IMG/VR virus record: IMGVR_UViG_3300044675_003864
Span: 1-31,640 of that record
DNA length: 31,640 bases
Direction: 5' to 3' (one strand)
Source: a virus
The translations under genes and the position numbers were made by a program. This document shows, piece by piece, positions 4,782 to 31,640 of the stretch (position 1 is its first letter; each line of letters opens with the position of its first letter). The notes under the pieces were generated by a model. The model worked only from the letters and a program-made list of their open reading frames with translations. It was not told the origin of the DNA and ran no database searches.

Positions 4782-7700
4782 ATGTCATTTTCCTTCATAA
4801 ACAGCGATAGTTTAATACAAGTACAGAATTTACCAGATACTGGTAAGTACTATGATGATAGAATAATAGATCTAATACCATCATCATATTATGATATACT
4901 TACATTACCGAACTCATCAATAAATTTAGAATTACACGCATACGATTTAGTCGGTAATTATTTAACTGGAACTAGTTACGCCAATACTAACTATTGGGGG
5001 TATAGTAGTAATGTAGCAGCGCCTAATCTAAGGTTGAATGTAGATGTAAACAGTATATTGGAAGAATTAGGCCTGCTTCGAGGGCAATATCTATTAGGTA
5101 CAAATTTGTATAAACCTGAAGTAGGAAATTATAATACATCATCGTTTTACATAAAAGAAATATCAACAACTAGAAGAGAATTACGATTATATCCTGTTAA
5201 TGACGATAGTACACAATTTCAAACAGAGTATACTAACTTTATAGATAGTTGGAATAGTAACTTTCTGTATTGTATAGATGATTCAGTTAGAAGATATGAA
5301 CATTATCAACAAAACTTTTATTTCGACAATAACGCAGTATCGTTTGCATCATATACATCATCATTAGCTACGCCATTGGCAGTCTATACAAATACAACAT
5401 CCAGTGCGTTCGATCAATATATATTAGGCATAAATAACGATACTAATTGGTACACAAATGGCGCGGCAAATAGCAACACTATAACCATCGGCGGGACGAT
5501 TGCTACTGGGTTAACTGTTGCACCATCACAACAGTATTTAGATGCATTTGCATCAAAAGCAGCAATAACCGCATTATGGTTTAAGTCAGCTGATATTGAA
5601 ATAACACCTGATACTATACAAAGATTTGAATTCGAAATTAAAGAATATATAAATACATTTGCATCTACAGTAACTGTACAACAGATAAAAAGTATATATG
5701 ATAGTATACTAACAAAAGAATTTTGGAGAAAGGATTCGAATGGTACACCGATATATGTAGGACAAACATACTTTAACACGATACGAACGGCACTACCATC
5801 TTTTCCTGGGTTACCCCCGTTACCGGCACCACCATCAACATTCGCTAAGGCAGGATATTCATTACAACCGTTTAATGTATATAATGATAAATTAGTATTA
5901 AATTTTGGTAACAATAATTTAGCTAAAATAATCAATATAGCTAAAGAAGACCCATATGCTATTATTGTAAAATTGTCACAACCATTAGATTTACAATTTC
6001 AAGAATATGATAGATTATGGATAGCTACCGAACTTATAGAACCATTAATAGATAAAATCTTATTAATCAATCTAATAGTTCAACAGCTAGGTAACAATCT
6101 ACGTGGTCCTAATTTTGATATTGATATAGAAGAGGCGCAAAGTATAGCAACATCATTACAATCTTGGAATGATTTATTATCGGCAAATGTTGCAACAAAT
6201 CAACAGATAATAAATAAGTATTTTAGTTCTAGTATAGATGGGATAGTATTAAATATAGATTATACAGACTTTAAAAACTTTATACATTTTAGTTCTGCTG
6301 AAGAACGAGTATCTAATTTTAAGTATAAACTAGAATTAATAGAATATTATACTAATAGAATTAATGTACTAAATAGTTCTACAGGTTCACTTCTAGATAT
6401 AAATGTATTGGAGTCTGAAAGTAATAGAAATAAAATTATTTCAGGATTTGATGATTTTGAAAAATATTTATTCTATCAAACAAATGACACATATCAATTA
6501 TATACATTTGAGACAGGATCAATTCTACCATGGCCTAAACAAAATGTAGCCAACTCGTATATATCATACGAAAATCAAGTATCGACAACTAGTTCAATAG
6601 CTGAAACATATTTTAGTGATTTATTACAACAGGCACAGACATATGACTCATATAATTTACATAGCTTAAGAAAGACTATTCCTGTACATTTACAAGATGA
6701 CCAATTTAATGCTGATTATATCTTATTTGTAGATATGATTGGTCATTACTATGATATTATTTGGTCATACATTAATGATATGACTAAAATCAATACTAGA
6801 TTAGAAAATCCTAGAGATGGTGTATCTAATGATTTAATATATGGAATAGCTAAATCATTAGGATTAGATGTATATAATGGTAGAAACATACAAGAACTTT
6901 GGAAATATTCATTAGGTGTTGATACAAGCGGTAGTTATATACAAACAGGTAGTATTCAATCATTATCATATGAGCAAGGCACAAAAGAAGTATGGAGAAG
7001 AGTAATTAATAACTTACCATATCTTTATAAGACAAAGGGAACTGCAAGAAGTATTAAAGCATTATTATCTTGTTATGGAATTCCTACTAGTATATTGAAT
7101 ATACGAGAATATGGTGGTGTCGCTTCTGATGAAAACGATTTATTTCCTTATTGGGTGCATGATATATTTACATATGCACATAAAGCTACAGGTGATGATT
7201 CAAATTATGTCATAACACCATGGCAAGCATTCACAAAAGTTACAAAAGACCTCCCGGCCGGATATCAAACTAGTAGTTTAGTACTACCTCCAACATCAAC
7301 CGGAACAAGTACAGGACCGACAACTACTACAATACCTACATTAGGTATACAAACAGGAACATCATCGACTATAAATTCACCAAGATCAAGCACGATAGTT
7401 AATAGAAGTACTGATACACAATCGACACAATACCCGGATGCTATAGAGTTTAGATTTAGAACTGACGACAATTTTACATATGCATATAATCAAGAATATT
7501 CATTATTAAGATTGAATTCAGTTAATTATCAGTTCACAGGAGAAACTTGGTCACAGATACAAACACAATGGAATCAAACAAATGTAATATGGGCATATGC
7601 AAGTGCATCATTAGCAGTAGCTAATCCATTCTTTGAAGTTACATTAAAACGTACAACAGATAAACAAGGAACATTGACATTATATATGTCAGGTAGTAAT

Positions 7701-9215
7701 GGGTTTCTATCCGCGTCTATTGAGGATGTATATTTATTTAATAATGATTGGATAACTGCTGCAGTACAACGAGGCATATCTACAGATGTGACATCGTCTA
7801 ACAATCAATCTTATACATTAAAATACCAAAGAGGGTATTACGGAAAGATAGTACAATCAGGTAGCGCAGCGATAGATTTAAGCACAGTATCAACAAGCGG
7901 CTCATATAATGCAAACTGGACTTCTGGTAGTTATATTGCATTTGGGCAAGGTGGATTGAATACTGCTATATCCGGTAATTATTCTAATAAGTTTAATGGA
8001 TTTTATCAAGAATTAAGATATTGGTATGGTACGTTGAGTGATTATGCTATTAGCAATCATACTTTATCACCCAATTCATATAATGGTAATGAACATTTTT
8101 CTGCGTATTACGATTTAGTATTTAGAACATCATTATCAAGAAAAGATTTGGTGGTAAATGGTACATTTGGATACCAACAACAGTTATCACATCACCCTAA
8201 TCAAAATATAAACACCGGCTCATCTGCAATATTCGTTAATAGAGTGGGCGTAAATAGTGTACCTTTTGAAGGAGTAGAGGATGCATATTACACACTTTAT
8301 GCAGATTTAACTTCAAAAGTAATATCAAGCGAAAAGATTAGAATACAATCACAATCGTTAAATGGTACAGCACTACAAACAGATAAGAGAGTGACTATAT
8401 CATCATTAGATAAAAATTCTAATGATTCAAATAAATTAGGTATATTCTTTTCTCCACAGGCAGGAATTAATGAAGATATCGTAAACCATATGGGGTATAT
8501 ATCTTTAGATGATTATATAGGTGACCCTAGATATGCGTATGAGTATAATTATAAAACGTTAGTAGACTTATCTTCAGAATATTGGAAAAAGTATAATAAT
8601 AAAAATGACTTTGAAGCATATTTTAGAGCACTACAAATATACGATTTATCAATATTCAGACAGATTAAAAAGTTTGTACCTGCAAGAGCTAATCTGATAT
8701 CTGGTATATTAGTAGAACCAAACTTATTAGAAAGAAGTAAAGCTAGAATAGTAAGAAATATAGTTCTTGAAGAAGCATCAGTATTTAAACCAACTGCAGG
8801 TCGTAGTACATATGCCGAAACAGGAACAACCTTGTCTGCAATAAATAACCCATTACCTGCAGGTGGCGCTAACATATTTGCGGCACAGCTAATGACAGGA
8901 ACTGTAGCCGATAATGCACAAGGTACAGCACCTACCCCAGTTGCCTCTCCTATAGGTACACAGACAGTTATTGGTGGCCAATATATATTACCTACAACAT
9001 CAACAAATATAGTTACCGGTGTTGTAATGGATACAACAACCAACACATCATTGTCGGACGGATTTATTACGGGAACTAAATTGGTTAGTGCAGGCATTAA
9101 TATACCAAGTTTAGACACTGTAGATGGTGGTCCGGTAGTGTCAGTAATACAAGCAAATAGTACACAGATATTTACACAACCTTTAGGGACAACCGGAAAT
9201 TTAGAAATTAGATAA
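4782..9215 (+). CDS. Giant baseplate wedge-like protein (gp7/gpI-type core plus LamG-like domain)
   Basis: Largest gene in the window, 1477 residues. Around residues 620-705 is a segment of the type FVDMIGHYYDIIWSYINDMT ... RDGVSNDLIYGIAKSLGL. At residues 747-770 is LYKTKGTARSIKALLSCYGI, which resembles the KGT-x(3)-I-x(2)-LL-x(3)-G motif of P2 gpI/tail-protein-I (Tri2) baseplate proteins; T4 gp7 is the functional counterpart that clamps two gp6 chains. Residues ~886-1105 look like a LamG/concanavalin-type beta-sandwich (DAIEFRFRTDD ... FNGFYQELRYWYGTLS). Near residues 1295-1320 is FVPARANLISGI, recurrent in large tailed-phage structural proteins. A Ser/Thr/Gly-rich stretch (~residues 830-880) links core and LamG region, and the last ~150 residues are low-complexity Thr/Ala/Gly. 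Synteny with gp6 and the KGT motif support a wedge role; the gp7 equivalence is inference. Confidence 0.72.
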   Translation: MSFSFINSDSLIQVQNLPDTGKYYDDRIIDLIPSSYYDILTLPNSSINLELHAYDLVGNYLTGTSYANTNYWGYSSNVAAPNLRLNVDVNSILEELGLLRGQYLLGTNLYKPEVGNYNTSSFYIKEISTTRRELRLYPVNDDSTQFQTEYTNFIDSWNSNFLYCIDDSVRRYEHYQQNFYFDNNAVSFASYTSSLATPLAVYTNTTSSAFDQYILGINNDTNWYTNGAANSNTITIGGTIATGLTVAPSQQYLDAFASKAAITALWFKSADIEITPDTIQRFEFEIKEYINTFASTVTVQQIKSIYDSILTKEFWRKDSNGTPIYVGQTYFNTIRTALPSFPGLPPLPAPPSTFAKAGYSLQPFNVYNDKLVLNFGNNNLAKIINIAKEDPYAIIVKLSQPLDLQFQEYDRLWIATELIEPLIDKILLINLIVQQLGNNLRGPNFDIDIEEAQSIATSLQSWNDLLSANVATNQQIINKYFSSSIDGIVLNIDYTDFKNFIHFSSAEERVSNFKYKLELIEYYTNRINVLNSSTGSLLDINVLESESNRNKIISGFDDFEKYLFYQTNDTYQLYTFETGSILPWPKQNVANSYISYENQVSTTSSIAETYFSDLLQQAQTYDSYNLHSLRKTIPVHLQDDQFNADYILFVDMIGHYYDIIWSYINDMTKINTRLENPRDGVSNDLIYGIAKSLGLDVYNGRNIQELWKYSLGVDTSGSYIQTGSIQSLSYEQGTKEVWRRVINNLPYLYKTKGTARSIKALLSCYGIPTSILNIREYGGVASDENDLFPYWVHDIFTYAHKATGDDSNYVITPWQAFTKVTKDLPAGYQTSSLVLPPTSTGTSTGPTTTTIPTLGIQTGTSSTINSPRSSTIVNRSTDTQSTQYPDAIEFRFRTDDNFTYAYNQEYSLLRLNSVNYQFTGETWSQIQTQWNQTNVIWAYASASLAVANPFFEVTLKRTTDKQGTLTLYMSGSNGFLSASIEDVYLFNNDWITAAVQRGISTDVTSSNNQSYTLKYQRGYYGKIVQSGSAAIDLSTVSTSGSYNANWTSGSYIAFGQGGLNTAISGNYSNKFNGFYQELRYWYGTLSDYAISNHTLSPNSYNGNEHFSAYYDLVFRTSLSRKDLVVNGTFGYQQQLSHHPNQNINTGSSAIFVNRVGVNSVPFEGVEDAYYTLYADLTSKVISSEKIRIQSQSLNGTALQTDKRVTISSLDKNSNDSNKLGIFFSPQAGINEDIVNHMGYISLDDYIGDPRYAYEYNYKTLVDLSSEYWKKYNNKNDFEAYFRALQIYDLSIFRQIKKFVPARANLISGILVEPNLLERSKARIVRNIVLEEASVFKPTAGRSTYAETGTTLSAINNPLPAGGANIFAAQLMTGTVADNAQGTAPTPVASPIGTQTVIGGQYILPTTSTNIVTGVVMDTTTNTSLSDGFITGTKLVSAGINIPSLDTVDGGPVVSVIQANSTQIFTQPLGTTGNLEIR

Positions 9216-19916: not shown

Positions 19917-22900
19917 ATGAGCTTTAATCTTACTAACCAATACATATCTCAATCATTTCACAACCTAGTACAAATAAGTGGATCTACAATATTGGTTGAT
20001 GGCCTAGGAAATTTCGTATATGATTTAGATACAATCAAAACCGGATCATTTACAGGATCATTTGTAGGAGACGGTAGCGGATTATCAAACGTCGGAGTAG
20101 GAAGTGGACTTTTAACAACAGCATCTTTTAACTCGTATACAGGATCTAATGCATCTCGATTTGCAGGAACTGCTTCATTTGCATCAACAGCATCATTTAC
20201 TCCTAATGCTTTAATAACAGCTTCTGTAGCATCTAATATTATTACTTTTACAAAAGGAGATGGTAGTACGTTTCCCATAACAGTCAATACAGGAAGTGGA
20301 GGAGGAAGTGGATTATTAACAACTGCTTCTTTTAATTCATATACAGGTTCCAATACTTCGCAATTTGCAGGAACATCTTCATTTGCATCAACAGCATCAT
20401 ACGCTTTAAATGGAGGAGTAACACAAATTGTTGCTGGAACAAATGTAACTATAACTAATGGTGGAAGTGGTTCTGTAACCATAAATGCTGCAACAGGAAG
20501 TGGCAGTGGAAGTGGAACACCAGGTGGATCAAATAGAGAAATACAATTTAATAGTGGAAGTGCGTTTTCAGGCAGTGCAGCATTTAGATTTATATATACA
20601 AGTCAAAGTTTAGAACAAGGATACCAAACAACAGCATCAGGATCATATTCGCACGCAGAAGGAGGTGAAACACAAGCAATAGGAGAAGGATCACACGCTG
20701 AAGGACGCCAAACAACAGCATCAGGAGATTATTCACACGCTGAAGGAGAATATACACAAGCAATAGGATTTGTATCACACGCTGAAGGTGCAAATACAAT
20801 TGCTCAAGAGCAATTCTCACACGCTGAAGGCATCCTTACACAAGCAATAGGACTTGCATCACACGCTGAAGGGTCGGAAACACAAGCAATAGGATATGCA
20901 TCACACGCAGAAGGAGACAGAACAAAAACAGGAACACAAAACGCTTATTATGCTCAATCTGTAGTATCAGGTATAGTAACATTATCAAGTTCGTATGGTG
21001 ATGTATCTACTGAATTTAGTGCTGATAATAGATTATATCTATATGATGATCCATTTGATAATATTTATACTAGAGCAACTTTTATCATAAGTCAATCATA
21101 TTATAGCGGCTCAACAAATACAATAGTAGAATTGTATGATACAAGCGTAACAACAACAACTGCTTACGTTGGTGATATTAATTATGGAATAGAAAACTGG
21201 ACAGGAGATCAAACTATACCAGGAGATTATTCACACGCAGAAGGATATGAAACACTAGCAATAGGATCATATTCACACGCAGAAGGCTATAGCACACAAG
21301 CAATAGGAAATTATTCACACGCAGAAGGAGACAGAACACAAGCAATAGGAATTGCATCACACGCAGAAGGTTATCAAACACAAGCAATAGGAGGTTATTC
21401 ACACGCTGAAGGTGATGCCACACAAGCAATAGGAGATCATTCACACGCTGAAGGTAATTACGCACAAGCAATAGGATATGCATCACACGCTGAAGGACGC
21501 CAAACAAAAACAGGAACACAAAACGCTTATTATGCTCAATCAGTAGTATCAGGTTCTATAATATTATCAGGTTCTTACGGCAATGTAACTAGTTCATTTG
21601 TGGCAGATAATATATTGTATTTATATGATCAACCATTTGATGATTACTATAATAAAGCAAAATTCATAATTAGTCAATCATATTATAGTGGCTCAACAAA
21701 TACAATAGTAGAATTGTATGATACTAGTATAAATACAGCAACAGCTTATGTTGGAGATTTAGGACAAGGTATATACAACTGGACCGGTGATCAAACTATA
21801 CCAGGACAATATTCACACGCTGAAGGTGAATATACACTAGCACTAGGAGATTATTCACACGCTGAAGGCTCTGGTACACAAGCATCAGGAGAATTCTCAC
21901 ACGCTGAAGGAGAATATACACAAGCAATAGGAAGTGTCTCACACGCTGAAGGTGATGCCACACAAGCAATAGGAGGTGCATCACACGCTGAAGGGGAAGA
22001 TACTCAAGCAATAGGATATGCATCACACGCAGAAGGATGGTACACAACAGCATCAGGAGATTATTCACACGCTGAAGGATTAGGAACAATAGCATCGGCT
22101 GACTTCCAACACGTACAAGGATTATATAATATCACAAGTTCAGTATCAGGAGCATTTATAGTAGGAAACGGAGTATCTAATGCAAGTAGAAGTAATTTAA
22201 TTTATGCACATGATAATGTAGTAGAAATCTCAGGTTCATTATTTATAAGTGGAGCAGCACAATCAGCAGGTAATAACAACATATTAACTTACAATACAAC
22301 CACAGGTTTAGTAACTTACACAGCTTCAGCTGCAATTGGTGGAGGAGGAAGTGGAACACCAGGTGGATCAGATACAGAAATTCAATTTAATAGTGGAAGT
22401 GCGTTTTCAGGCAGTGCAGCATTTAGATTTATATATACAAGTCAAAGTTTAGAACAAGGATACCAAACAACAGCATCAGGATCATATTCGCACGCAGAAG
22501 GAGACACTACACAAGCAATAGGATCATATTCACACGCAGAAGGAGAAACTACAATAGCAATAGGAAATGCATCACACGCTGAAGGAGGCCAAACAAAAAC
22601 AGGAACACAAAACGCTTATTATGCTCAATCAGTAGTATCAGGTTCCATAACATTATCAGGTTCTTATGGTGATGTAACTAGTGAATTTAGTACTGATAAT
22701 AGATTGTATTTATATGATGCACCTTATAATATTTATACTAGAGCAACTTTTATCATAAGTCAATCATACTACTCAAATCCAAATACAATAGTAGAATTGT
22801 ATGATACAGGTATAAACACAACTACTGCATATGTTGGAGATATTAATTATGGAATATATAACTGGACAGGAGATCAAACTATACCAGGATACGCTTCACA

Positions 22901-23714
22901 CGCTGAAGGTTGGCAAACACAAGCAATAGGACAATATTCACACGCTGAAGGATATTACACTCTAGCAATAGGAGAATATTCACACGCAGAAGGAGAATAT
23001 ACACAAGCAATAGGAAACTATTCACATGCAGAAGGTCGACTTACAAACTCAAAAGGACAGTATTCACACGCTGAAGGACGCCAAACAACAGCATCAGGAT
23101 CATATTCACACGCTGAAGGCTATGACACACAAGCAATAGGATCATATTCACACGCTGAAGGTGGCTCCACACAAGCATCAGGATCATATTCACACGCTGA
23201 AGGTGCTAACACACAAGCAATAGGAGTTGCATCACACGCAGAAGGTAACTTCACACAAGCAAAAGGAGATCAATCACACGCAGAAGGATTGGGCACAACA
23301 GCATCAGGATCATATTCACACGCTGAAGGCACTAGTACACAAGCAATAGGAGAATATTCACACGCTGAAGGCGCTTCCACACGAGCAATAGGAGCCGGAT
23401 CGCATGCTGAAGGATTAGGAACAATAGCAAACGGAGATTATCAACACGTACAAGGACAATATAATATATCATCCTCAGCTCAATCAGCTTTTATAGTAGG
23501 TAATGGAACATCTAATGCAAGTAGAAGTAATTTAGTATTTGCTTCAGGAAGTACTTTCCAAATCTCAGGTTCACTATTACTAAATGATATATTGGTACTT
23601 GCACCAAGAACAACAACACCAACACCTTCAGCAGGAATGTTAATAGTATCAGGTTCAGGAGCAAATCAACATATATACTGCTATCTAAACAGTACTTGGA
23701 AACAATTAGATTAA
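19917..23714 (+). CDS. Tail fibre/adhesin with 37 SHAEG beta-roll repeats
   Basis: A 1265-residue probable host-recognition fibre. The N-terminal ~240 residues are Gly/Ser/Thr-rich fibre sequence (FTGSFVGDGSGLSNVG; ASFNSYTGSN twice). Then come 14-residue repeats of the form AIGxYSHAEGxxTQ, resembling the YadA/Hia head repeat that folds as a trimeric left-handed beta-roll. I count 37 exact SHAEG units in blocks of 7, 7, 7, 3 and 13, with two degenerate QHVQG units closing blocks. Three blocks are separated from the next by a ~100-residue cassette (TGTQNAYYAQ ... NWTGDQTIPG) present in three copies. A GTPGGS...EIQFNSGSAFSG lead-in and a post-roll segment (FIVGNG ... NASRSNL) each occur twice. 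The C-terminus (PSAGMLIVSGSGANQHIYCY ...) is a short fibre-end motif with no chaperone or endosialidase domain. Receptor-binding function is inferred from fold and location. Confidence 0.85.
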   Translation: MSFNLTNQYISQSFHNLVQISGSTILVDGLGNFVYDLDTIKTGSFTGSFVGDGSGLSNVGVGSGLLTTASFNSYTGSNASRFAGTASFASTASFTPNALITASVASNIITFTKGDGSTFPITVNTGSGGGSGLLTTASFNSYTGSNTSQFAGTSSFASTASYALNGGVTQIVAGTNVTITNGGSGSVTINAATGSGSGSGTPGGSNREIQFNSGSAFSGSAAFRFIYTSQSLEQGYQTTASGSYSHAEGGETQAIGEGSHAEGRQTTASGDYSHAEGEYTQAIGFVSHAEGANTIAQEQFSHAEGILTQAIGLASHAEGSETQAIGYASHAEGDRTKTGTQNAYYAQSVVSGIVTLSSSYGDVSTEFSADNRLYLYDDPFDNIYTRATFIISQSYYSGSTNTIVELYDTSVTTTTAYVGDINYGIENWTGDQTIPGDYSHAEGYETLAIGSYSHAEGYSTQAIGNYSHAEGDRTQAIGIASHAEGYQTQAIGGYSHAEGDATQAIGDHSHAEGNYAQAIGYASHAEGRQTKTGTQNAYYAQSVVSGSIILSGSYGNVTSSFVADNILYLYDQPFDDYYNKAKFIISQSYYSGSTNTIVELYDTSINTATAYVGDLGQGIYNWTGDQTIPGQYSHAEGEYTLALGDYSHAEGSGTQASGEFSHAEGEYTQAIGSVSHAEGDATQAIGGASHAEGEDTQAIGYASHAEGWYTTASGDYSHAEGLGTIASADFQHVQGLYNITSSVSGAFIVGNGVSNASRSNLIYAHDNVVEISGSLFISGAAQSAGNNNILTYNTTTGLVTYTASAAIGGGGSGTPGGSDTEIQFNSGSAFSGSAAFRFIYTSQSLEQGYQTTASGSYSHAEGDTTQAIGSYSHAEGETTIAIGNASHAEGGQTKTGTQNAYYAQSVVSGSITLSGSYGDVTSEFSTDNRLYLYDAPYNIYTRATFIISQSYYSNPNTIVELYDTGINTTTAYVGDINYGIYNWTGDQTIPGYASHAEGWQTQAIGQYSHAEGYYTLAIGEYSHAEGEYTQAIGNYSHAEGRLTNSKGQYSHAEGRQTTASGSYSHAEGYDTQAIGSYSHAEGGSTQASGSYSHAEGANTQAIGVASHAEGNFTQAKGDQSHAEGLGTTASGSYSHAEGTSTQAIGEYSHAEGASTRAIGAGSHAEGLGTIANGDYQHVQGQYNISSSAQSAFIVGNGTSNASRSNLVFASGSTFQISGSLLLNDILVLAPRTTTPTPSAGMLIVSGSGANQHIYCYLNSTWKQLD
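20509..20664 (+). repeat. 156-bp direct repeat, copy 1 (fibre lead-in)
   Basis: Encodes the segment GSGTPGGSNREIQFN through the first SHAEG unit. Near-identical to 22347-22502, with differences confined mainly to the NRE/DTE codons. It marks the start of each half of the fibre, indicating duplication of a whole lead-in plus roll. Confidence 0.88.
20634..20924 (+). repeat. SHAEG beta-roll block A (7 units of 42 nt)
   Basis: Seven tandem 14-codon units coding [A][IS]GxxSHAEGxxT. The core TCACACGC(T/A)GAAGG is nearly invariant at DNA level. Unit 5 is diverged before its core (AQEQFSHAEG). Confidence 0.9.
20925..21224 (+). repeat. Fibre cassette, copy 1 (100 codons)
   Basis: Codes KTGTQNAYYAQSVVSG ... 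NWTGDQTIPG, including ISQSYYSGSTNTIVELYDT. It interrupts the beta-roll between blocks A and B. Related copies are at 21507-21806 and 22596-22889. Confidence 0.9.
21225..21506 (+). repeat. SHAEG beta-roll block B (7 units)
   Basis: Seven tandem SHAEG units between cassette copies 1 and 2. The same number as in blocks A and C suggests a fixed structural module of roll plus cassette. Confidence 0.88.
21507..21806 (+). repeat. Fibre cassette, copy 2 (100 codons)
   Basis: Same length as copy 1. Diverged in the middle (SSFVADNILYLYDQPFDDYY versus STEFSADNRLYLYDDPFD), conserved at both ends. Confidence 0.9.
21807..22112 (+). repeat. SHAEG beta-roll block C (7 units plus QHVQG cap)
   Basis: Seven SHAEG units, then a degenerate ASADFQHVQGLYN unit that closes the roll before a non-repeat region with FIVGNG and NASRSNL motifs. 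Confidence 0.88.
22077..22200 (+). repeat. Post-roll direct repeat, copy 1
   Basis: Encodes GLGTIAS...QHVQGLYN through FIVGNG and NASRSNL. It corresponds to 23412-23538 with moderate divergence in the middle. It caps the first fibre half. Confidence 0.8.
22347..22502 (+). repeat. 156-bp direct repeat, copy 2 (fibre lead-in)
   Basis: Second copy of the 20509-20664 segment; it begins the second fibre half. The stretch coding SGSAFSGSAAFRF through the first roll unit appears identical between copies. Confidence 0.88.
22473..22595 (+). repeat. SHAEG beta-roll block D (3 units)
   Basis: Only three SHAEG units before cassette copy 3, compared with seven in the equivalent block A, consistent with loss or gain of whole 42-nt units. 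Confidence 0.88.
22596..22889 (+). repeat. Fibre cassette, copy 3 (98 codons)
   Basis: Third cassette, two codons shorter (YSNPNTIVEL in place of YSGSTNTIVEL, and DAPYNIYTR in place of DDPFDNIYTR). Confidence 0.9.
22890..23465 (+). repeat. SHAEG beta-roll block E (13 units plus QHVQG cap)
   Basis: Longest roll block: thirteen SHAEG units, then ANGDYQHVQGQYN. Several units diverge in the linker (SKGQYSHAEG, AKGDQSHAEG). Confidence 0.88.
23412..23538 (+). repeat. Post-roll direct repeat, copy 2
   Basis: Second copy of the 22077-22200 segment. It caps the second fibre half and leads into the short C-terminal end domain. Confidence 0.8.
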
Positions 23715-23736: not shown

Positions 23737-23952
23737 ATGATCCCTTTAAACCTAAATTTTAACAGACCTAAACCTAGAAAAGTAACTTTAGAATACACTA
23801 TTGATAATCCAGGTAAGAAAATAGTATATGCTCAAACAAGAGAAGTTGGTAGAATAGTATTATGGAGAGCTGCAGCGTATGATTCTATTGGGCAGTGGAC
23901 TGATGCTGATGTGACCAACAAACTAAAAGAGTTATACCCAACTAATGATTAA
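23737..23952 (+). CDS. Small protein, unknown function
   Basis: A 71-residue basic protein that I do not recognise. The sequence (MIPLNLNFNRPKPRKVTLEY ... GRIVLWRAAAYDSIGQW ... VTNKLKELYPTND) suggests a small globular alpha/beta fold with no Cys, membrane segment or signal peptide. It follows the fibre stop by 22 nt, with an A-rich leader (AAAATAAAATAAAATAAAATG) and no Shine-Dalgarno. Its 3' end overlaps the next start by 8 nt, which suggests translational coupling to the nucleotidyltransferase-ligase fusion. That is the only hint to function. Confidence 0.6.
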   Translation: MIPLNLNFNRPKPRKVTLEYTIDNPGKKIVYAQTREVGRIVLWRAAAYDSIGQWTDADVTNKLKELYPTND

Positions 23953-25669
23953 TAAAGTAATAGCAGTATACCCAGGACGCTTTCAGCCAATGGGAAAACA
24001 TCATGCTGCAACATTTCTGTGGCTACAAAAACAATTTGGGGCTAACAATACTTATATAGTTACTTCTGATAAAGTAGAACTACCAAAATCACCATTAAAC
24101 TTTAAAGAAAAGAAAGCTGTTATAGATATGTATGGGTTTGGTAATAAAACTATCAAAGTTAAGAATCCATATAAAGCAGAAGAATTGCTATCTAAATTTG
24201 ATCCTAACACAACAGCGGTAGTATTTATGGTAGGTGAAAAGGATATGAAAGAAGATGCTAGATTTAAAGTAGGTAAATTAAAATCTGGAGCTGATTCATA
24301 TTTTCAGAATTATAATGATAGTAAAAACAATTTACAGGGATACGATAAATACGGATATCTTATAACAGCACCGCATATATCATTAAATGTACCAGGATAT
24401 GGTGAAATGAGTGGAACCAAAATTAGACAAGCACTTGGAGACCCTAAATTACCAAAAGAAGAAAAGAAAAAAGTATTTGACAAAATATTCGGATGGTATT
24501 CAGAAAAATTAGCCAATTATATTATAGATAAATTTACAGTAGATATGCAAGAATCAGTTTTAACTAGAGAATGGTGGAATAAAGTATTTAGAGATAGTAA
24601 GCCTACAGACACTTTGGATATGGAGCATCAATTGTTAGTTTGCGGAGGTGCCGCAGGACACATGGCTCACCCTTTTAATATTGATTGGGTAAAAACAGGA
24701 CCTGATTTAGTTAAAGTATTTCAACAATCAATAAACTTTTTAAATAAGAAACCTGCCTCTGTTAAAATAGATGGAGTAAATGCATCTATTAGATTAATAA
24801 CATTAGATGGTAAAAAGACATTTGTACTAGATAGAGGGTCTAATAAACCATTAGATGTTAAAGGTATTACAAAAGCAGATTTAGAAGATAGATTTGGCGC
24901 TGGACATGGAATGATAAAAATCGGAGGTACTGTATTAGATATATTTAATGATGCAATACCAGAATCTCAATCAGAACTAAAAAGATTAGGTCTATGGGAC
25001 AATCCTAATATACTATTCAATATTGAATATGTAGCTGGATCTACTAATGTATTAGCATACAATAAAAACTTTTTAGCTATACATGGCTTATTAGAAATAG
25101 TACAAGTTACACCAACAAAACGAACTACTAAAGAAAAGGTATATAATAAAAAGGTATTACAAGACTATTTGAATAAACTTAATTTAACTGCTAACGGATA
25201 TGGATATGAAGTATTAGGGTCTGTACCAACCACATTAGATGGTGAACCTAATTTACAAGCTGAATTAAATAAAAAGTATACAGTAAATTATGGCGGTGGA
25301 AAAGAAGAGACTAAAACGTTAGGTAAATGGTTAGCTAAAGCTACATTACCAGATACAACATTCAAAACAAAAGACGGTAAAGTAGTATCTGCACTATCGA
25401 AAGATGTATTATCAAAACTAATGTCAGGAATGCCATTAGATGAATATGTTGCAGATCCAAAAGATTATAAATCTGTAGTAGATGGGTTTGTTATATATTT
25501 AGCTACTATGAAATTAGGCGATGCTGTATTAGCTAAGCTATCATCCCCTTTGGGCCCTGTATCCGAGCATGAAGGGATTGTTATAAGAGATAAGACAATA
25601 TATAATAAACCTTTTAAGATTACCGGAAAGTTTATTTTAGGGGGGTTAGCGAGTAGTTTTAGAAAATAA
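23945..25669 (+). CDS. Nucleotidyltransferase fused to ligase-like adenylyltransferase
   Basis: A 574-residue two-domain protein. Residues 1-200 form a Rossmann-type nucleotidyltransferase of the NMN-adenylyltransferase/cytidylyltransferase class. GRFQPMGKHH (11-20) takes the place of GRFQPxHxGH, and MSGTKIR (155-161) is the second active-site motif. The first His of HxGH is not conserved (GKHH). Residues ~235-574 carry the ordered motifs of covalent nucleotidyltransferases (DNA/RNA ligases, capping enzymes): motif I VKIDG with Lys274, motif III-like FNIEYVAG with Glu361, motif IV EGIVIRD (543-549) and motif V FKITGKF (Lys558). The pairing suggests an enzyme of NAD+/nucleotide chemistry or RNA repair. 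Similar N-terminal sequences occur in T4-like cyanophages, from memory. Both motif sets are visible; substrate and biological role are unknown. It overlaps the upstream small gene by 8 nt. Confidence 0.75.
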   Translation: MINKVIAVYPGRFQPMGKHHAATFLWLQKQFGANNTYIVTSDKVELPKSPLNFKEKKAVIDMYGFGNKTIKVKNPYKAEELLSKFDPNTTAVVFMVGEKDMKEDARFKVGKLKSGADSYFQNYNDSKNNLQGYDKYGYLITAPHISLNVPGYGEMSGTKIRQALGDPKLPKEEKKKVFDKIFGWYSEKLANYIIDKFTVDMQESVLTREWWNKVFRDSKPTDTLDMEHQLLVCGGAAGHMAHPFNIDWVKTGPDLVKVFQQSINFLNKKPASVKIDGVNASIRLITLDGKKTFVLDRGSNKPLDVKGITKADLEDRFGAGHGMIKIGGTVLDIFNDAIPESQSELKRLGLWDNPNILFNIEYVAGSTNVLAYNKNFLAIHGLLEIVQVTPTKRTTKEKVYNKKVLQDYLNKLNLTANGYGYEVLGSVPTTLDGEPNLQAELNKKYTVNYGGGKEETKTLGKWLAKATLPDTTFKTKDGKVVSALSKDVLSKLMSGMPLDEYVADPKDYKSVVDGFVIYLATMKLGDAVLAKLSSPLGPVSEHEGIVIRDKTIYNKPFKITGKFILGGLASSFRK

Positions 25670-25713: not shown

Positions 25714-26346
25714 ATGGCTAAATCAAATGCGGATAGCAAGTTACGTAATATAGATGCAATTAAGCAGATGCTTAATGGAAATCATAAGTTTCAAACAAAA
25801 ACAACACTAGGTTATACAGGTAAAACTACTGATAAACGTGAAGTAGGAGATATTTGGGTAGATGAAGATGGATTTGAATGGGAACAAAAAGCTGGCTATA
25901 GAATTAAAAAAGGAAAGTTAGACGGCTTACGAGAGGAACTAAAGATCTTTAAACATTGTAGAAAGGAAACTTGTACTTGTATAGAGCCTAGTAGAGCTGA
26001 TGAAAAGATGCGAACATTACACGGAATGTGTTTAGATTGTGTTATCGATATGGAACATAATTTAAAGTTAGATGGGAAGTATGAGGCGTATGAGTTTGAT
26101 AAAATGAAACAAAATGCTTTATCTTGGTTAAGAGAAAGCGAAAAGGAGGTTGAGGCGTTGAAAATTGCAATATTCCAAGCACCGGAATTTGTAACTGTAG
26201 ACGGTCATATTAATAAATGGGAGTTACAATATGATCCTGAGAAAATGAAAAATTCAATTGAAGACCAATTCAATCAATTGAAGCATAAAATTTTTGAAGA
26301 GTATAAGGTTACAGTAGAAGAATATGAACAATTTAAAACTATCTAA
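25714..26346 (+). CDS. Cys-rich conserved phage protein, possible zinc-binding
   Basis: A 210-residue protein without a family that I can name. The N-terminal half contains REVGDIWVDEDGFEWEQKAG, which looks like a small beta-hairpin domain. A cluster of cysteines, C82, C87, C89, C106 and C109 (HCRKETCTC ... HGMCLDC), could bind zinc. The C-terminal half is highly charged and predicted helical, probably coiled-coil (SWLRESEKEVEALKIAIFQA; EDQFNQLKHKIFEEYKVTVE). There is no membrane segment. A candidate promoter lies 14 nt upstream, so this gene may start a new transcript that includes the GAF-like protein. Its place close to the terminase would suit a packaging- or head-assembly factor, but that is only positional. 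Confidence 0.6.
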   Translation: MAKSNADSKLRNIDAIKQMLNGNHKFQTKTTLGYTGKTTDKREVGDIWVDEDGFEWEQKAGYRIKKGKLDGLREELKIFKHCRKETCTCIEPSRADEKMRTLHGMCLDCVIDMEHNLKLDGKYEAYEFDKMKQNALSWLRESEKEVEALKIAIFQAPEFVTVDGHINKWELQYDPEKMKNSIEDQFNQLKHKIFEEYKVTVEEYEQFKTI

Positions 26347-27892: not shown

Positions 27893-28468
27893 ATGAGCGA
27901 TAAATACAAAGAAATAATTAAACAAGAGTATAGGAAATGTTTTCAAGATCCTATATACTTTATGAAGAAGTATTGTGTGATTCAACATCCACAAAAAGGT
28001 AAAATCAACTTTAACTTATACCCATATCAGGAAGATTGTTTACGAGACTTTAACACATATGATTACAATATTATATTGAAATCAAGACAGCTAGGTATAT
28101 CAACCTTATGTGCTGCTTATTCGTTATGGTATATGACATTTTATGGAGATAAAAATATAATGGTACTTGCAACTAAACAAGAAGTAGCTAAAAATCTAGT
28201 AACTAAAGTTAGAGTAATGTATCAGAATTTACCTAGTTGGATAAAAGTACCTTCTGTAGAAGATAATAAATTAAGTCTTAGATTTAAAAATGGTTCACAA
28301 ATAAAAGCTACAACAACAAATAGTGATGCAGGTCGATCTGAATCATTGTCAATGCTAGTTGTAGATGAATGTGTATCTGGCACGACACATATTAAGGTTC
28401 GTAATAAAAAAACAGGCGAGATTAAACATATACAAATATCAGAGTTATATAACGAATTGAAAAACTGA
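27893..28468 (+). CDS. terL: Large terminase, N-terminal fragment fused to intein IntN1
   Basis: First third of the DNA-packaging ATPase (T4 gp17-like). Extein residues 1-159 contain a Walker-A-like SRQLGIST at 64-71 (T4 gp17 SRQLGKTT) and Walker B MLVVDE ending at the catalytic Glu159. Residues 160-191 (C-V-S-G-T-T...YNELKN) are not terminase. They form a 32-residue intein N-half that starts with the nucleophilic Cys and a block-A pattern, then stops at 28466. The matching C-half is on the gene at 29501. Splicing would restore VVDE|CAFIDN, the canonical terminase sequence after Walker B. The start at 27893 is the only sensible ATG after the previous stop, as the ATG at 27888 meets TGA after one codon. 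The fragment alone lacks the rest of the ATPase and the nuclease, so it cannot package DNA unspliced. Confidence 0.93.
   Translation: MSDKYKEIIKQEYRKCFQDPIYFMKKYCVIQHPQKGKINFNLYPYQEDCLRDFNTYDYNIILKSRQLGISTLCAAYSLWYMTFYGDKNIMVLATKQEVAKNLVTKVRVMYQNLPSWIKVPSVEDNKLSLRFKNGSQIKATTTNSDAGRSESLSMLVVDECVSGTTHIKVRNKKTGEIKHIQISELYNELKN
28370..28465 (+). other. Split intein 1, N-terminal half (IntN1, 32 residues)
   Basis: Begins with Cys1 in CVSGTTHIKVRN (block A) and ends IQISELYNELKN at a stop. Its length and its break before block B define the atypical split site, as in AceL-TerL (IntN of about 25 residues). It pairs with IntC1 at 29501-29830. Confidence 0.9.
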
Positions 28469-28475
28469 TATTGTG

Positions 28476-28484
28476 TATATTTAT
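28476..28484 (+). promoter_or_regulatory. Candidate promoter element TATATTTAT for the homing endonuclease
   Basis: Just after the TerL-N stop (28468) and 18 nt before the ATG at 28503, the same spacing as at 9232-9240. It would let HEG1 be transcribed independently of terminase. The context is TGTATATTTATATG. Confidence 0.4.
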
Positions 28485-28502
28485 ATGTATAATAGATGCT
28501 AT

Positions 28503-29516
28503 ATGGACAATAAAGAAATATTATCTAAAATTTATATAAATGGTAGCCTACATCATGACGTACTACAAACTACGTTTTTTAAAAAGCGTAATATAGAAAA
28601 TGTATATCAAGCTATATTAGATAACACATCATTTTTAAATGATTATGATCCTAGTTTACGAGAACGAATATATTATATAGAACATGATTATAATGATGTA
28701 CAACGATGCCCATATTGTAACACCAATAAACTTAAGTTTAATGGTAAGTATAATCCATTTAGTAAGACATGTTTACAAAAAGAATGTGTCACTAAACATA
28801 GAAATATAGTGGCTATCGAAAAGTGGTCACGTAGTACAAAACGAATTCAATATATGGAAGATATTTGTAATGGGTGTGGTACTACGTATAAAAAGGCAAA
28901 GAATTCAATTAAACGATATTGTACTCAAAAGTGTTGGACATTAAACGGTGATTATGTACATTCAGAAGTGACAAAACAAAAGATTAGAAATACTAATAGT
29001 GTTGTTCATAGTAGTATAGAATTCAAAGAAAAACATAAACAGACATATCTTAATGCAAGACATAAACAGTCTGAGACTATGAAACGTAAAATAGCAAATG
29101 GGGAGTTTACGCCATGCATTACAAATTCATGGACTAGATGGAAAGCACAATTAAATATTAACGGCACAATAAAAAAGTTTAGGAGTATGTGGGAAGCTGC
29201 ATTCTACTCATTAAATACACATTTACAATACGAAGTTACCAGGATACCATATATAATCGATAACAATTCGCATACATATATAGTTGATTTTACTGATAAT
29301 ACTAATAAAATATTATATGAGATAAAACCAAAATCGTTAGTAGAACACCCCCGAAATATTGTTAAACAAACAGCAGCTCAAAACTGGTGTAAAAATATGG
29401 GATATTCGTATGTAGTTATCGATGATGATTGGTACATTAGTAACTTTGATAGATTTGATTTGACAAAACATCCTGAACTTACAACTGTAATTAATTCTAT
29501 ATGCAAAAAGAAATAG
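28503..29516 (+). CDS. Homing endonuclease 1: zinc ribbons, NUMOD3-like region, PD-(D/E)XK nuclease
   Basis: Free-standing endonuclease gene lying between the two halves of intein 1; such genes copy themselves into intein-less alleles. Numbered from the ATG at 28503 (337 residues), there are two Cys clusters: C69, C72, C90, C95 and C122, C125, C140, C144, probably zinc-binding. Residues ~152-200 look like NUMOD3-type DNA-binding helices (HSEVTKQKIRNTN; SETMKRKIANGEF). The C-terminal nuclease has E231 (SMWEAAFYSL), D262 (HTYIVDF) and ExK E273-x-K275 (YEIKPK), a PD-(D/E)XK active site. In-frame GTG at 28473 and ATG at 28485 are alternatives; 28503 is preferred because it lies 18 nt after the TATATTTAT box. 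Its 3' end overlaps TerL-M by 16 nt. The nuclease motifs are clear; homing activity and target are inferred from position. Confidence 0.82.
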   Translation: MDNKEILSKIYINGSLHHDVLQTTFFKKRNIENVYQAILDNTSFLNDYDPSLRERIYYIEHDYNDVQRCPYCNTNKLKFNGKYNPFSKTCLQKECVTKHRNIVAIEKWSRSTKRIQYMEDICNGCGTTYKKAKNSIKRYCTQKCWTLNGDYVHSEVTKQKIRNTNSVVHSSIEFKEKHKQTYLNARHKQSETMKRKIANGEFTPCITNSWTRWKAQLNINGTIKKFRSMWEAAFYSLNTHLQYEVTRIPYIIDNNSHTYIVDFTDNTNKILYEIKPKSLVEHPRNIVKQTAAQNWCKNMGYSYVVIDDDWYISNFDRFDLTKHPELTTVINSICKKK

Positions 29517-29830
29517 TACATAATAGTGATTGGGAGATATTAACACCATCAGGGTGGTCAGATTTTATAGGCGTATCAAAGACTACTAAAAATGTAATGT
29601 TTACAATAACTTTTGATGATGGTACAACACTACAATGTAGCGAATGGCATTTATTAAAATACCCAAATGGTGAATTTTTAGACGCATGTCATGTATTATC
29701 GGGCGATATTTTATTTGGGGGTAAAGTTGTAACATCGGTTACGTATGAATTAGGTGAATTTGAATTATATGATGCAATGGAAGTTGAATTAGATAATGAA
29801 TATTTTACCAATGATGTCGTAAGTCACAAC
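29501..29830 (+). other. Split intein 1, C-terminal half (IntC1, 110 residues)
   Basis: Contains ILTPSGWSDFIGV, block-B-like TLQCSEWH, block F (LYDAMEVELDNEYF) and block G NDVVSHN, followed by extein Cys+1 at 29831. The penultimate His and terminal Asn needed for Asn cyclisation are present. No endonuclease domain is embedded; that function is on the separate HEG1 gene. Confidence 0.9.
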
Positions 29831-30193
29831 TGCGCGTTTATCGACAATATAGATACGGTATGGGCAGCAGCTCAACAAACACTTGCTACAGGAGGAAAAG
29901 CAATTTTATTATCATCACCTAATGGTACCGGCAACTTTTTTCATAAAACATGGGAGGACGCAGAGAATAATCCTAAAAGTAGATTTCATCATATTCGATT
30001 ACCATGGACAGTACATCCAGAAAGAGATCAAGCTTGGAGAGAAAAACAAGATGAATTATTAGGGCCAAGAATGGCTTCGCAAGAATGTTTGGATGGCGAT
30101 TGTTTAGTTACGGTATATGATACAATAACTGATGAAGTTAAGGAAATGACATTATTTCAGCTATATAAAGAAAATAGAAATGTTAACCTGTAA
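29501..30193 (+). CDS. terL: IntC1 / large terminase middle fragment / IntN2
   Basis: A 230-residue protein in which a short terminase piece is framed by parts of two different inteins. Residues 1-110 are IntC1, with a block-B-like LQCSEWHLL (His50) and the terminal block VVSHN|C. Residues 111-195 are terminase extein, starting CAFIDNIDTVWAAAQQ, passing the coupling-type motif LLSSPNGTGNFF and ending ELLGPRMASQE. Residues 196-230 (C-L-D-G-D-C...NRNVNL) are IntN2, again starting with Cys. In T4 gp17 the extein part corresponds to the second half of the ATPase domain. It is not functional by itself and needs splicing at both ends. Its N-terminus overlaps HEG1 by 16 nt and its C-terminus overlaps HEG2 by 14 nt. 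The order IntC-extein-IntN is the same as in engineered peptide-cyclising split inteins. Confidence 0.92.
   Translation: MQKEIVHNSDWEILTPSGWSDFIGVSKTTKNVMFTITFDDGTTLQCSEWHLLKYPNGEFLDACHVLSGDILFGGKVVTSVTYELGEFELYDAMEVELDNEYFTNDVVSHNCAFIDNIDTVWAAAQQTLATGGKAILLSSPNGTGNFFHKTWEDAENNPKSRFHHIRLPWTVHPERDQAWREKQDELLGPRMASQECLDGDCLVTVYDTITDEVKEMTLFQLYKENRNVNL
30086..30190 (+). other. Split intein 2, N-terminal half (IntN2, 35 residues)
   Basis: Starts with Cys1 in CLDGDCLVTVYD and ends with a helical EMTLFQLYKEN plus five residues before the stop at 30191. The split is again before block B. The last codons overlap the HEG2 start. Confidence 0.88.
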
Positions 30194-31067
30194 AGTTTGT
30201 AATACATATACCGCAAAACAATTGTTTCAACACTTACATAGTGTGCATGATATGTCTATTGCTGAATATAGAGATTTATACGGTAAGCATGAAGTAGTAC
30301 AAATGGGGTTTAATCCTAAGACTAGTACATTATATAAAACTTCTGATCAAATACTATCTAATCGTGTAAAGGGTGGGTATTCTAAAATATATAATAAATT
30401 AGATAATGTTTCTACATATGATTTAAGTAAAACTATTGAATTGCTAAAACATAATGATTTATATACTAGATATATAGGAAAATCAAAATACCGTACTATG
30501 ATAAATGATGATTCTAAATTATATAAATCAGTAATACATCATACTAGCAATTTAGATAAACATTTTAAACGAGTATCATTTACTAATCGTATAGAATATT
30601 TAATATCTGATTTAGATGATTCATACATAATGTGTTCATGTAAGCAAGAACATACTTTTAATAAATACTGCAATAAATGTCCCGACAGACCCGGGAGTCG
30701 AACTGCCCAAGGTAAAACTGTATCTGATGAGACTAGAAAGCGAATACGAATAAGTACATTGAATTACATATCTAAGATGAAATCAAAACGAATAATGCCT
30801 AGATATAATGTTAATTCAATATCTATAATTGAGGAATATGGAATTACTAACGGATATTCATTCATACATGCAGAGAATGTTGGTGAATATCATATTAAAG
30901 AATTGGGATACTTCTTAGATGCATACGATCCTATAAAAAATGTAGTTTTAGAGATTGATGAATCGCATCATTATGATAAAGATGGGCAGTTAATAGAAAA
31001 AGATGTTAGGAGACAAAAAGAAATTGAGGATTATTTACAATGCAAATTTATTCGTATACGTATATGA
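30180..31067 (+). CDS. Homing endonuclease 2: zinc fingers plus Vsr-like (EDxHD) nuclease
   Basis: A 295-residue free-standing endonuclease located between the halves of intein 2. The N-terminus has a C2H2/MucR-like finger, CKVC (C4, C7) with H18 and H23 in FQHLHSVHDMSIAEYRDLY. A second Cys group is C152, C154, C164 and C167. The C-terminal ~60 residues match the phage Vsr-like homing nuclease family (I-Bth0305I type): ELGYFLDAYDP (E241, D247), VVLEIDESHHYD (H263/H264) and LIEKDVRRQKEIEDYLQCKF (D275), an EDxHD-like set. It overlaps TerL-M by 14 nt at its start, and its stop overlaps TerL-C by 4 nt (ATGA), so it is tightly coupled in translation. It shares no obvious full-length similarity with HEG1, so the two interruptions probably arose independently. 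Homing function is inferred from family and position. Confidence 0.82.
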   Translation: MLTCKVCNTYTAKQLFQHLHSVHDMSIAEYRDLYGKHEVVQMGFNPKTSTLYKTSDQILSNRVKGGYSKIYNKLDNVSTYDLSKTIELLKHNDLYTRYIGKSKYRTMINDDSKLYKSVIHHTSNLDKHFKRVSFTNRIEYLISDLDDSYIMCSCKQEHTFNKYCNKCPDRPGSRTAQGKTVSDETRKRIRISTLNYISKMKSKRIMPRYNVNSISIIEEYGITNGYSFIHAENVGEYHIKELGYFLDAYDPIKNVVLEIDESHHYDKDGQLIEKDVRRQKEIEDYLQCKFIRIRI

Positions 31068-31384
31068 TACAAAACAGATATAAAATTTTAACGCCGAATG
31101 GATTTGAAGATTTTGACGGCGTGCAAAAAATAACTCATACTGGATATGTATTGGTTAAATTAAGTAATGGCGTAGAAATTAAATGTTCTAAAAATCATGC
31201 GTTTATATTAGATGACAGAGAAATATTTGCACATGAGTTATATGAAGGATGTGAAATAGATACAACCACATCGGAATCCGTATATGTCATATCAATATCA
31301 TATATAAACGAAATAATTGATTTATTTGATATATTAAATGTAGATTCACATAAATTCATAGTTAATGGTTTAGTGTCACATAAT
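31064..31384 (+). other. Split intein 2, C-terminal half (IntC2, 107 residues)
   Basis: ILTPNGFEDFDGVQ parallels ILTPSGWSDFIGV of IntC1. It has block-B-like EIKCSKNHAF, block F LFDILNVDSHKF and block G VNGLVSHN before Cys+1 at 31385. It is homologous to IntC1 but clearly diverged. Confidence 0.9.
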
Positions 31385-31640
31385 TGTGATGCCGATTTCA
31401 TTTCATCAGGAAATACATTACTAGATCCAGACTTATTATCCTGGTATGAAAATACAACAGTACAAGAACCTGTTGAGAAACGAGGGTTTGACGGTAATTT
31501 ATGGATATGGGAATATCCAAATTACTCTAGACAGTATGTGGTTAGCGCTGACGTTGCAAGAGGCGATGGTGGGGACTATTCAGCATTCCATATAATAGAT
31601 GTAGAAACCTTAACACAGGTTGCTGAATATAAAGGACAAA
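31064..31640 (+). CDS. terL: IntC2 / large terminase C-terminal fragment (partial, runs off window)
   Basis: An open frame from ATG at 31064 to the window end, 192 complete codons without a stop. Residues 1-107 are IntC2, from MIQNRYKILTPNGFEDFDGV, through block-B-like IKCSKNHAFIL (His45), to GLVSHN|C. Residue 108 on is terminase: CDADFISSGNTLLDPD, then RQYVVSADVARGDGGDYSAF, in which the SADVARG Asp corresponds to a metal-binding Asp of the gp17 nuclease (T4 VDVSEG). Splicing with the previous fragment gives ASQE|CDADF, the conserved start of the nuclease half. The start is decided by the ATGA overlap with HEG2 and by similarity of its first residues to the start of IntC1 (both reach ILTP within 15 residues). 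The rest of the nuclease domain lies beyond 31640. Confidence 0.92.
   Translation, partial: MIQNRYKILTPNGFEDFDGVQKITHTGYVLVKLSNGVEIKCSKNHAFILDDREIFAHELYEGCEIDTTTSESVYVISISYINEIIDLFDILNVDSHKFIVNGLVSHNCDADFISSGNTLLDPDLLSWYENTTVQEPVEKRGFDGNLWIWEYPNYSRQYVVSADVARGDGGDYSAFHIIDVETLTQVAEYKGQ

Follow-up and report, generated by a model that had tools for sequence, protein, structure and literature searches.

The locus described here raises the question of why a phage should place two kinds of nucleotidyl-transfer domain in a single polypeptide, and what the two might do together. The window, by which we mean the whole stretch of 31,640 nucleotides analysed (IMG/VR record IMGVR_UViG_3300044675_003864), comes from a T4-like freshwater phage. 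On its plus strand at 23945..25669 lies an ORF of 574 amino acid residues encoding a fusion of a nucleotidyltransferase (NTase) and a ligase-like domain, as supported by ORF translation, near-identical copies and conservation. The genes around it include a gp6-like baseplate wedge, a primase, an SbcC-like nuclease subunit and the large terminase. The ORF is nearly identical on three further contigs (100% on L003 and L004, 99.7% on L005), which rules out an assembly join and confirms the fused two-domain ORF as real. Both the NTase and the ligase domain are under purifying selection, with pairwise dN/dS of 0.08-0.31 in each.

The gene immediately downstream (25714..26346, plus strand) has no assigned function and is kept beside the ligase gene in L061, L062, L064 and L092-L094. 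Directly upstream, at 19917-23714, is a large tail-fibre-like ORF (1265 aa) in which SHAEG is repeated dozens of times. The large terminase gene (27893-31639) is split by two intein-like insertions, with junctions near VDECVSGTTHI / VVSHNCAFI and ECLDGDCLVTV; an endonuclease-like ORF lies at 28473-29516 and a further ORF at 30180-31067.

Residues 1-200 (23945..24544, plus strand) were assigned to the HIGH NTase superfamily by family profile, Pfam and AlphaFold2/Foldseek. With Pfam CTP_transf_like the window protein scored 15.4 bits, under the cut-off of 21, and relatives scored above it (L048 26.0, L065 27.7, L066 21.3 and L002 35.3 bits). The predicted fold matched NadM, NadD and CoaD in Foldseek, NadM 2qjo being the best (E 2.6e-5). 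The NTase family profile retrieved phosphopantetheine and NMN adenylyltransferases, and PHROG 395 matched this half weakly (E 4e-4). The canonical HxGH is absent from the window NTase; GKHH takes its place within GRFQPMGKHH (residues 11-20, 23975..24004, plus strand), of which the last His, His20, does not vary across the family alignment. Its counterpart in most of the fused relatives is [GSA]xHH, so GKHH is a feature of the clade and not a sequencing error; HxGH occurs in the split-gene relatives and LR756508. The heptapeptide MSGTKIR (residues 155-161, 24407..24427, plus strand) reads as the SxTxxR motif of HIGH NTases. Like NadM, NadD and CoaD, the window NTase has the HIGH-superfamily fold and the GRFQP and SGTxxR motifs, but it differs from them in having GxHH for HxGH and no Nudix partner, and in that the related records lack NadV.

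Residues 234-574 (24644..25666, plus strand) form a putative Rnl1-like covalent nucleotidyltransferase (ligase-like) domain, as indicated by AlphaFold2 (pLDDT 89 for this half), Foldseek, VIA-align and motifs. Direct searches of Pfam, NCBIfam and PDB sequences gave no significant family for it. Among 24 members, no Pfam RNA ligase family was over the cut-off and the T4 Rnl1 family was unmatched, with Pfam RNA_ligase matching weakly in 3 of the 24 (best E 0.016). In structure comparison T4 Rnl1 came first both in Foldseek (E 5e-3) and in VIA-align (Z 8.3, rmsd 3.9, 177 residues, 16% identity); a Z near 8 would be weak taken singly, but the match list is consistent in itself, 49 of 50 rows among the matches listed being ligases.

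The plus-strand motifs of this half run from a conserved family signature at its N-terminus, GGAAGHMAHPF (residues 234-244, 24644..24676), through motif I KIDG (24764..24775), with Lys274 as the predicted adenylylated lysine, to DRGS (residues 296-299, 24830..24841), the probable counterpart of the RNA-ligase SK/SR motif. Motif III, NIEYV with Glu361 (25019..25033), aligns in hhalign with NFEFV (Glu159) of T4 Rnl1, and with a widened profile it is in register with that enzyme (E 6.9e-4, probability 27%). Motif IV, EGIV (residues 543-546, 25571..25582), is followed by motif V, FKITG with Lys558 (25613..25627), in which the second Lys of the T4 Rnl1 K-x-K is missing: FKITG has one Lys, as against K240 and K242 in the T4 family. 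Lys274-Ile-Asp-Gly, Asp296-Arg-Gly-Ser, Glu361, Glu543-Gly and Lys558 are invariant in 15 full-length relatives. The domain thus shares with T4 RNA ligase 1 (Rnl1, gp63) the predicted fold, KxDG, the register of motif III and the EG of motif IV; it differs in its low identity, in the single lysine of motif V, in a long insertion between motifs IIIa and IV and in its fusion to an NTase, which T4 Rnl1 does not have. By fold and motifs, then, the C-terminal domain resembles an Rnl1-type enzyme, and it is not placed in the Rnl1 sequence family.

The full-length AlphaFold2 model has two confident domains, built from shallow folding alignments (24 and 15 rows), and gives no defined mutual orientation of NTase and ligase (pTM 0.55). 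Between them lies a disordered linker (residues 201-238, 24545..24658, plus strand; pLDDT < 50), which in relatives is the site of variable inserts. An earlier note, made from the sequence of the window by itself, had proposed two structurally distinct AMP-transfer-type domains in one chain, and the NadM-like and T4 Rnl1-like predicted folds bear this out. Its view of GKHH as an altered HxGH agrees with the clade-typical [GSA]xHH. The order of motifs I, III, IV and V that it gave holds, and its predicted nucleophile, Lys274, does not vary among the 15 relatives. The second half, for which it had named a missing ligase fold as a refutation, has T4 Rnl1 as its top structural match.

The two domains recur together well beyond the window, which the earlier note had not seen. 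A scan of viral contigs gave 205 stretches encoding relatives, of which 80 were kept, and a profile scan gave 501; these contigs are fragments and are not independent of one another. In the annotated phage collection the only matches were Microcystis phage Mel-JY01 and an unannotated 484-kb phage genome. By a strict pattern, the ligase domain stands behind GRFQP-type NTases in 42 distinct complete ORFs, and in 9 ORFs it stands behind a different, GxFKP-type NTase. Gene order changes as well. L077, L079, L081 and L082 encode the two enzymes separately, in overlapping genes whose order is reversed, the NTase lying downstream of the ligase. In L135/L136 the ligase gene and a separate HIGH NTase gene face each other, and in LR756500 the gene next to the ligase carries the NTase at its C-terminal end. 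Among megaphage-like contigs binned as Firmicutes, L157 has the two fused and L156 has both in one gene island. In L055-L057 we saw ligases with no NTase in the part of the DNA covered. Pairing by fusion and by neighbouring genes in either order, with different NTase subfamilies, suggests that the NTase and the ligase very probably work together. The protein of phage Mel-JY01, annotated 'cytidylyltransferase like protein' (WWT39297.1), shares the domain order NTase-ligase with the window protein, aligns over 66% of the latter at 34% identity, and has its ligase domain preceded by a site of the LxE|GG type; it differs in its length of 639 aa and its leader-like N-terminus MGKLINILLSE, and its annotation covers the NTase half only.

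A comparable arrangement occurs in cyanophages, where HIGH NTases of T4-GC190 (PHROG 395), often with a T4-like leader and detected in virions, are encoded beside a KxDG protein, DUF6267 (PF19782), usually as separate genes and not as the fusion of the window. DUF6267 was found in 469 phage records and has the motif order HxxH...KxDG...EGxV...K. It lies directly before the NTase in S-CAM1, S-WAM1, ACG-2014e, S-8S55, syn9, Syn2 and S-SZBM1, and one gene away in DLP_6. In P-SSM2 and ACG-2014f DUF6267 and the NTase lie apart. In S-PM2, as deposited (L196 2526-4305), DUF6267 is spread over two ORFs, the second of which encodes its C-terminal part together with the NTase; a frameshift or a sequencing error is possible. 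In hhalign, whose values in this study are single pairwise comparisons, the window family matched the Mel-JY01 type with E 9e-9, the Mel-JY01 type matched DUF6267 with E 3.9e-4, and the window ligase family matched DUF6267 with E 0.029 directly and 0.013 with the widened profile, HxxH and KxDG being in register. A search for the DUF6267 family in the related records gave none above the cut-off. These comparisons are suggestive only, and DUF6267 is a possible distant relative of the window ligase domain. In the open-licence literature we found no paper naming DUF6267 and none containing all the terms that describe an RNA ligase-cytidylyltransferase fusion.

A further feature that the earlier note had not seen is a prohead-protease-type site in the linker of nearly all relatives. 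Of 52 non-redundant ligase loci, 50 have [LIV]-x-E|GG just before the ligase domain, and T4 gp21 cuts after L/I-x-E (PMC9026906). The two exceptions are the window (LLVC|GG) and L066 (LLLC|GG), both with Cys for Glu. In the window the residues before GG, LLVC (residues 230-233, 24632..24643, plus strand), make up a degenerate (L/I/V)xE site by junction comparison. L066 also carries, at 5989-8463, an HNH-homing-endonuclease-like stretch in frame within the NTase-ligase linker, bordered by a 10-nt duplication, GGGGCTGCCG. As LLLC|GG occurs at the L066 insertion and LLVC|GG in the window, an insertion of this kind may have left a scar in the window too. Both the window and L066 were scanned against Rfam for an intron underlying the linker insert, with no hits. 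Other inserts were observed in the linkers of relatives. A CWxGYxxxGxKKKxxxxVPNC module is present in many of them (L007, L016, L047, L059 and L092), a related form occurring in the virion-detected protein of S-SZBM1 gene 139 (L211 8989-10362), and in L068 a HAD-like stretch (FDDTI...FIDDSEDN) was read between the NTase and the ligase.

Such a site would fit with packaging in the capsid. T4 internal proteins carry a capsid-targeting sequence of about 10 residues (PMC9026906; PMC9958956), and T4 IPII and IPIII start with MKTYQEFIAE|A. Stand-alone ligase relatives start with MISFKQFVLE|GG or MITFxQFLxE|GG, and cyanophage NTases start with MKSFSQFLTE|T, MKKFSAFLSE|A, MKKFSAFLNE|A or MRFRQFIIE|A. 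The likeness is one of the 10-residue leader, for IPII and IPIII are neither ligases nor NTases, and the window protein, which starts with MINKVIAVYPGRF, has no N-terminal leader. Leaders are present in the relatives in L077, L079, L081, L082 and L156. The leader pattern, which was defined post hoc after such cases had been seen, occurred at 26 of 331 non-redundant N-termini and at 8 of 1480 internal Met, with a shuffle mean of 1.6. Of 12 long relatives, 11 encode a T4-type S77 prohead protease.

Cyanophage NTases, related to that of the window at the superfamily level, have been detected in virions by mass spectrometry several times: T4-GC190 in S-SM1 (PMC3037559), a cytidylyltransferase in S-SZBM1 (PMC9146016; S-SZBM1_140, leader MRFRQFIIE|A) and in S-CREM2 (PMC10665884), and NMNAT-like proteins in S-SCSM1 and S-CBWM1 (PMC9602691). 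The authors of virion proteomics allow for carry-over in CsCl preparations. In one case, the virion table of S-SZBM1, the leader-bearing NTase is present and its leaderless DUF6267 neighbour is absent, as the leader idea predicts. These patterns suggest that relatives of the window protein are packaged in the capsid and cleaved. With neither the leader nor the Glu, the window protein's own sequence does not support packaging or cleavage in the window phage.

Leaders were also observed on other proteins. L156 and L157, binned as Firmicutes/Erysipelotrichaceae, have runs of unrelated genes with T4-like leaders such as MKSINQYISE|S; in L156 these are 13 of 24 plus-strand ORFs. In L165 (2474-3103), L167 (10848-11411) and L168 (12431-12952) a HAD-phosphatase-like gene and P-loop kinase genes occupy one syntenic slot near capsid genes, a common leader ending in (I/L)NE preceding the different enzyme domains.

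The junction can also be read as a mere conserved N-terminal edge of the ligase domain, unrelated to packaging or protease cleavage. GGAxGHMxHPF is itself conserved and the Glu may belong to the same motif; moreover, closeness to head and tail genes does not by itself mean that the product of a late gene is packaged. However, the Glu and the Leu/Ile are conserved at the junction while the sequence upstream varies freely, and in stand-alone genes the same residues close a 10-residue T4-like leader. In L017/L050 the internal junction MKLKDLIVE|GG equals the leader MKLKDLLxE found on many unrelated proteins of these phages, and LR756508 has retained HxxHPF with no EGG motif. We consider it unlikely that a domain edge accounts for the site.

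Two other explanations concern the chemistry. The NTase could be an NMN adenylyltransferase that rebuilds NAD+ after depletion by defence, with the ligase-like domain using NAD+ as AMP donor and the NMN so released being recycled by the NTase. NadM is the best fold match, GRFQPF and SGTxxR are present, cyanophage relatives annotated as NMNAT-like are detected in virions (PMC9602691), and NadV working with NadM/NadR is known from phages (PMC9503650). According to that survey, however, phages with NadM always carry NadV, and NAPRTase (NadV) was found in 0 of 12 related records (2 of them whole phage genome records, several others fragments); NadD and CoaD fit the fold almost as well, and HxGH is altered. 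With no NadV, NAD+ reconstitution becomes less likely, and we regard it as improbable. The earlier note is therefore supported in part, its domains and motifs standing and the NAD+ salvage role that it had offered being weakened. The pair might instead belong to a modification pathway and not to the repair of breaks: a small molecule, activated by the NTase in CMP- or AMP-linked form, would be attached by the ligase-like domain to nucleic acid or to some other target. The recurrence of HIGH NTase with a KxDG domain speaks for this, as do motif V and a sequence that depart from true RNA ligases, but no sugar, lipid or base-modification genes were noticed tracking with the pair in an unsystematic look, and we give this pathway little credence.

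We favour, tentatively and at a little under an even chance, an accessory two-enzyme protein of end joining or nucleotidyl transfer in a T4-like phage, packaged in the capsid in relatives. Its anatomy, folds, conservation and recurrent pairing are established by the results above. In the proposed mechanism the C-terminal domain would adenylylate itself on Lys274 with AMP from ATP or NAD+ and pass the AMP to a 5'-phosphate end or similar, and the end would then be joined, most likely in RNA. In the same pathway the NTase domain would act on a small molecule or end that bears a phosphate, transferring a nucleotidyl group to it. To judge from the relatives, the ligase module may have arisen behind a capsid-targeting leader and the prohead-protease site LxE|GG. 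In most of them the enzymes are probably loaded into the head, separated by cleavage as the head matures, and then injected for an early role such as restoring RNA damaged by host defence. With the LxE site lost to Cys in the window phage, its two enzymes probably remain a single covalent chain.

RNA repair by end joining, a role that the earlier note had also named, is possible and is our leading guess, since Rnl1 is the closest fold and ligases of that type serve phages against tRNA cleavage (PMC7824862). A full kinase-phosphatase-ligase set for tRNA end-healing is not claimed, a PNK-like P-loop kinase family (AAA_33) being found in only 4 of 14 records. The most specific form of the proposal, possible but doubtful, is that most relatives are virion-carried polyproteins, loaded into the head and split at LxE|GG, with both enzymes injected to restore damaged RNA or nucleotides before phage gene expression, and that in the window phage, which has no cut site, the enzymes remain fused.

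The cyanophage 'cytidylyltransferases' are core genes that have repeatedly been found in virions with no role assigned, and an RNA-ligase-like partner gives a testable frame for them. The link also suggests what the DUF6267 family may be, and it draws attention to a large group of phage proteins with leader tags that are likely to be injected into the host.
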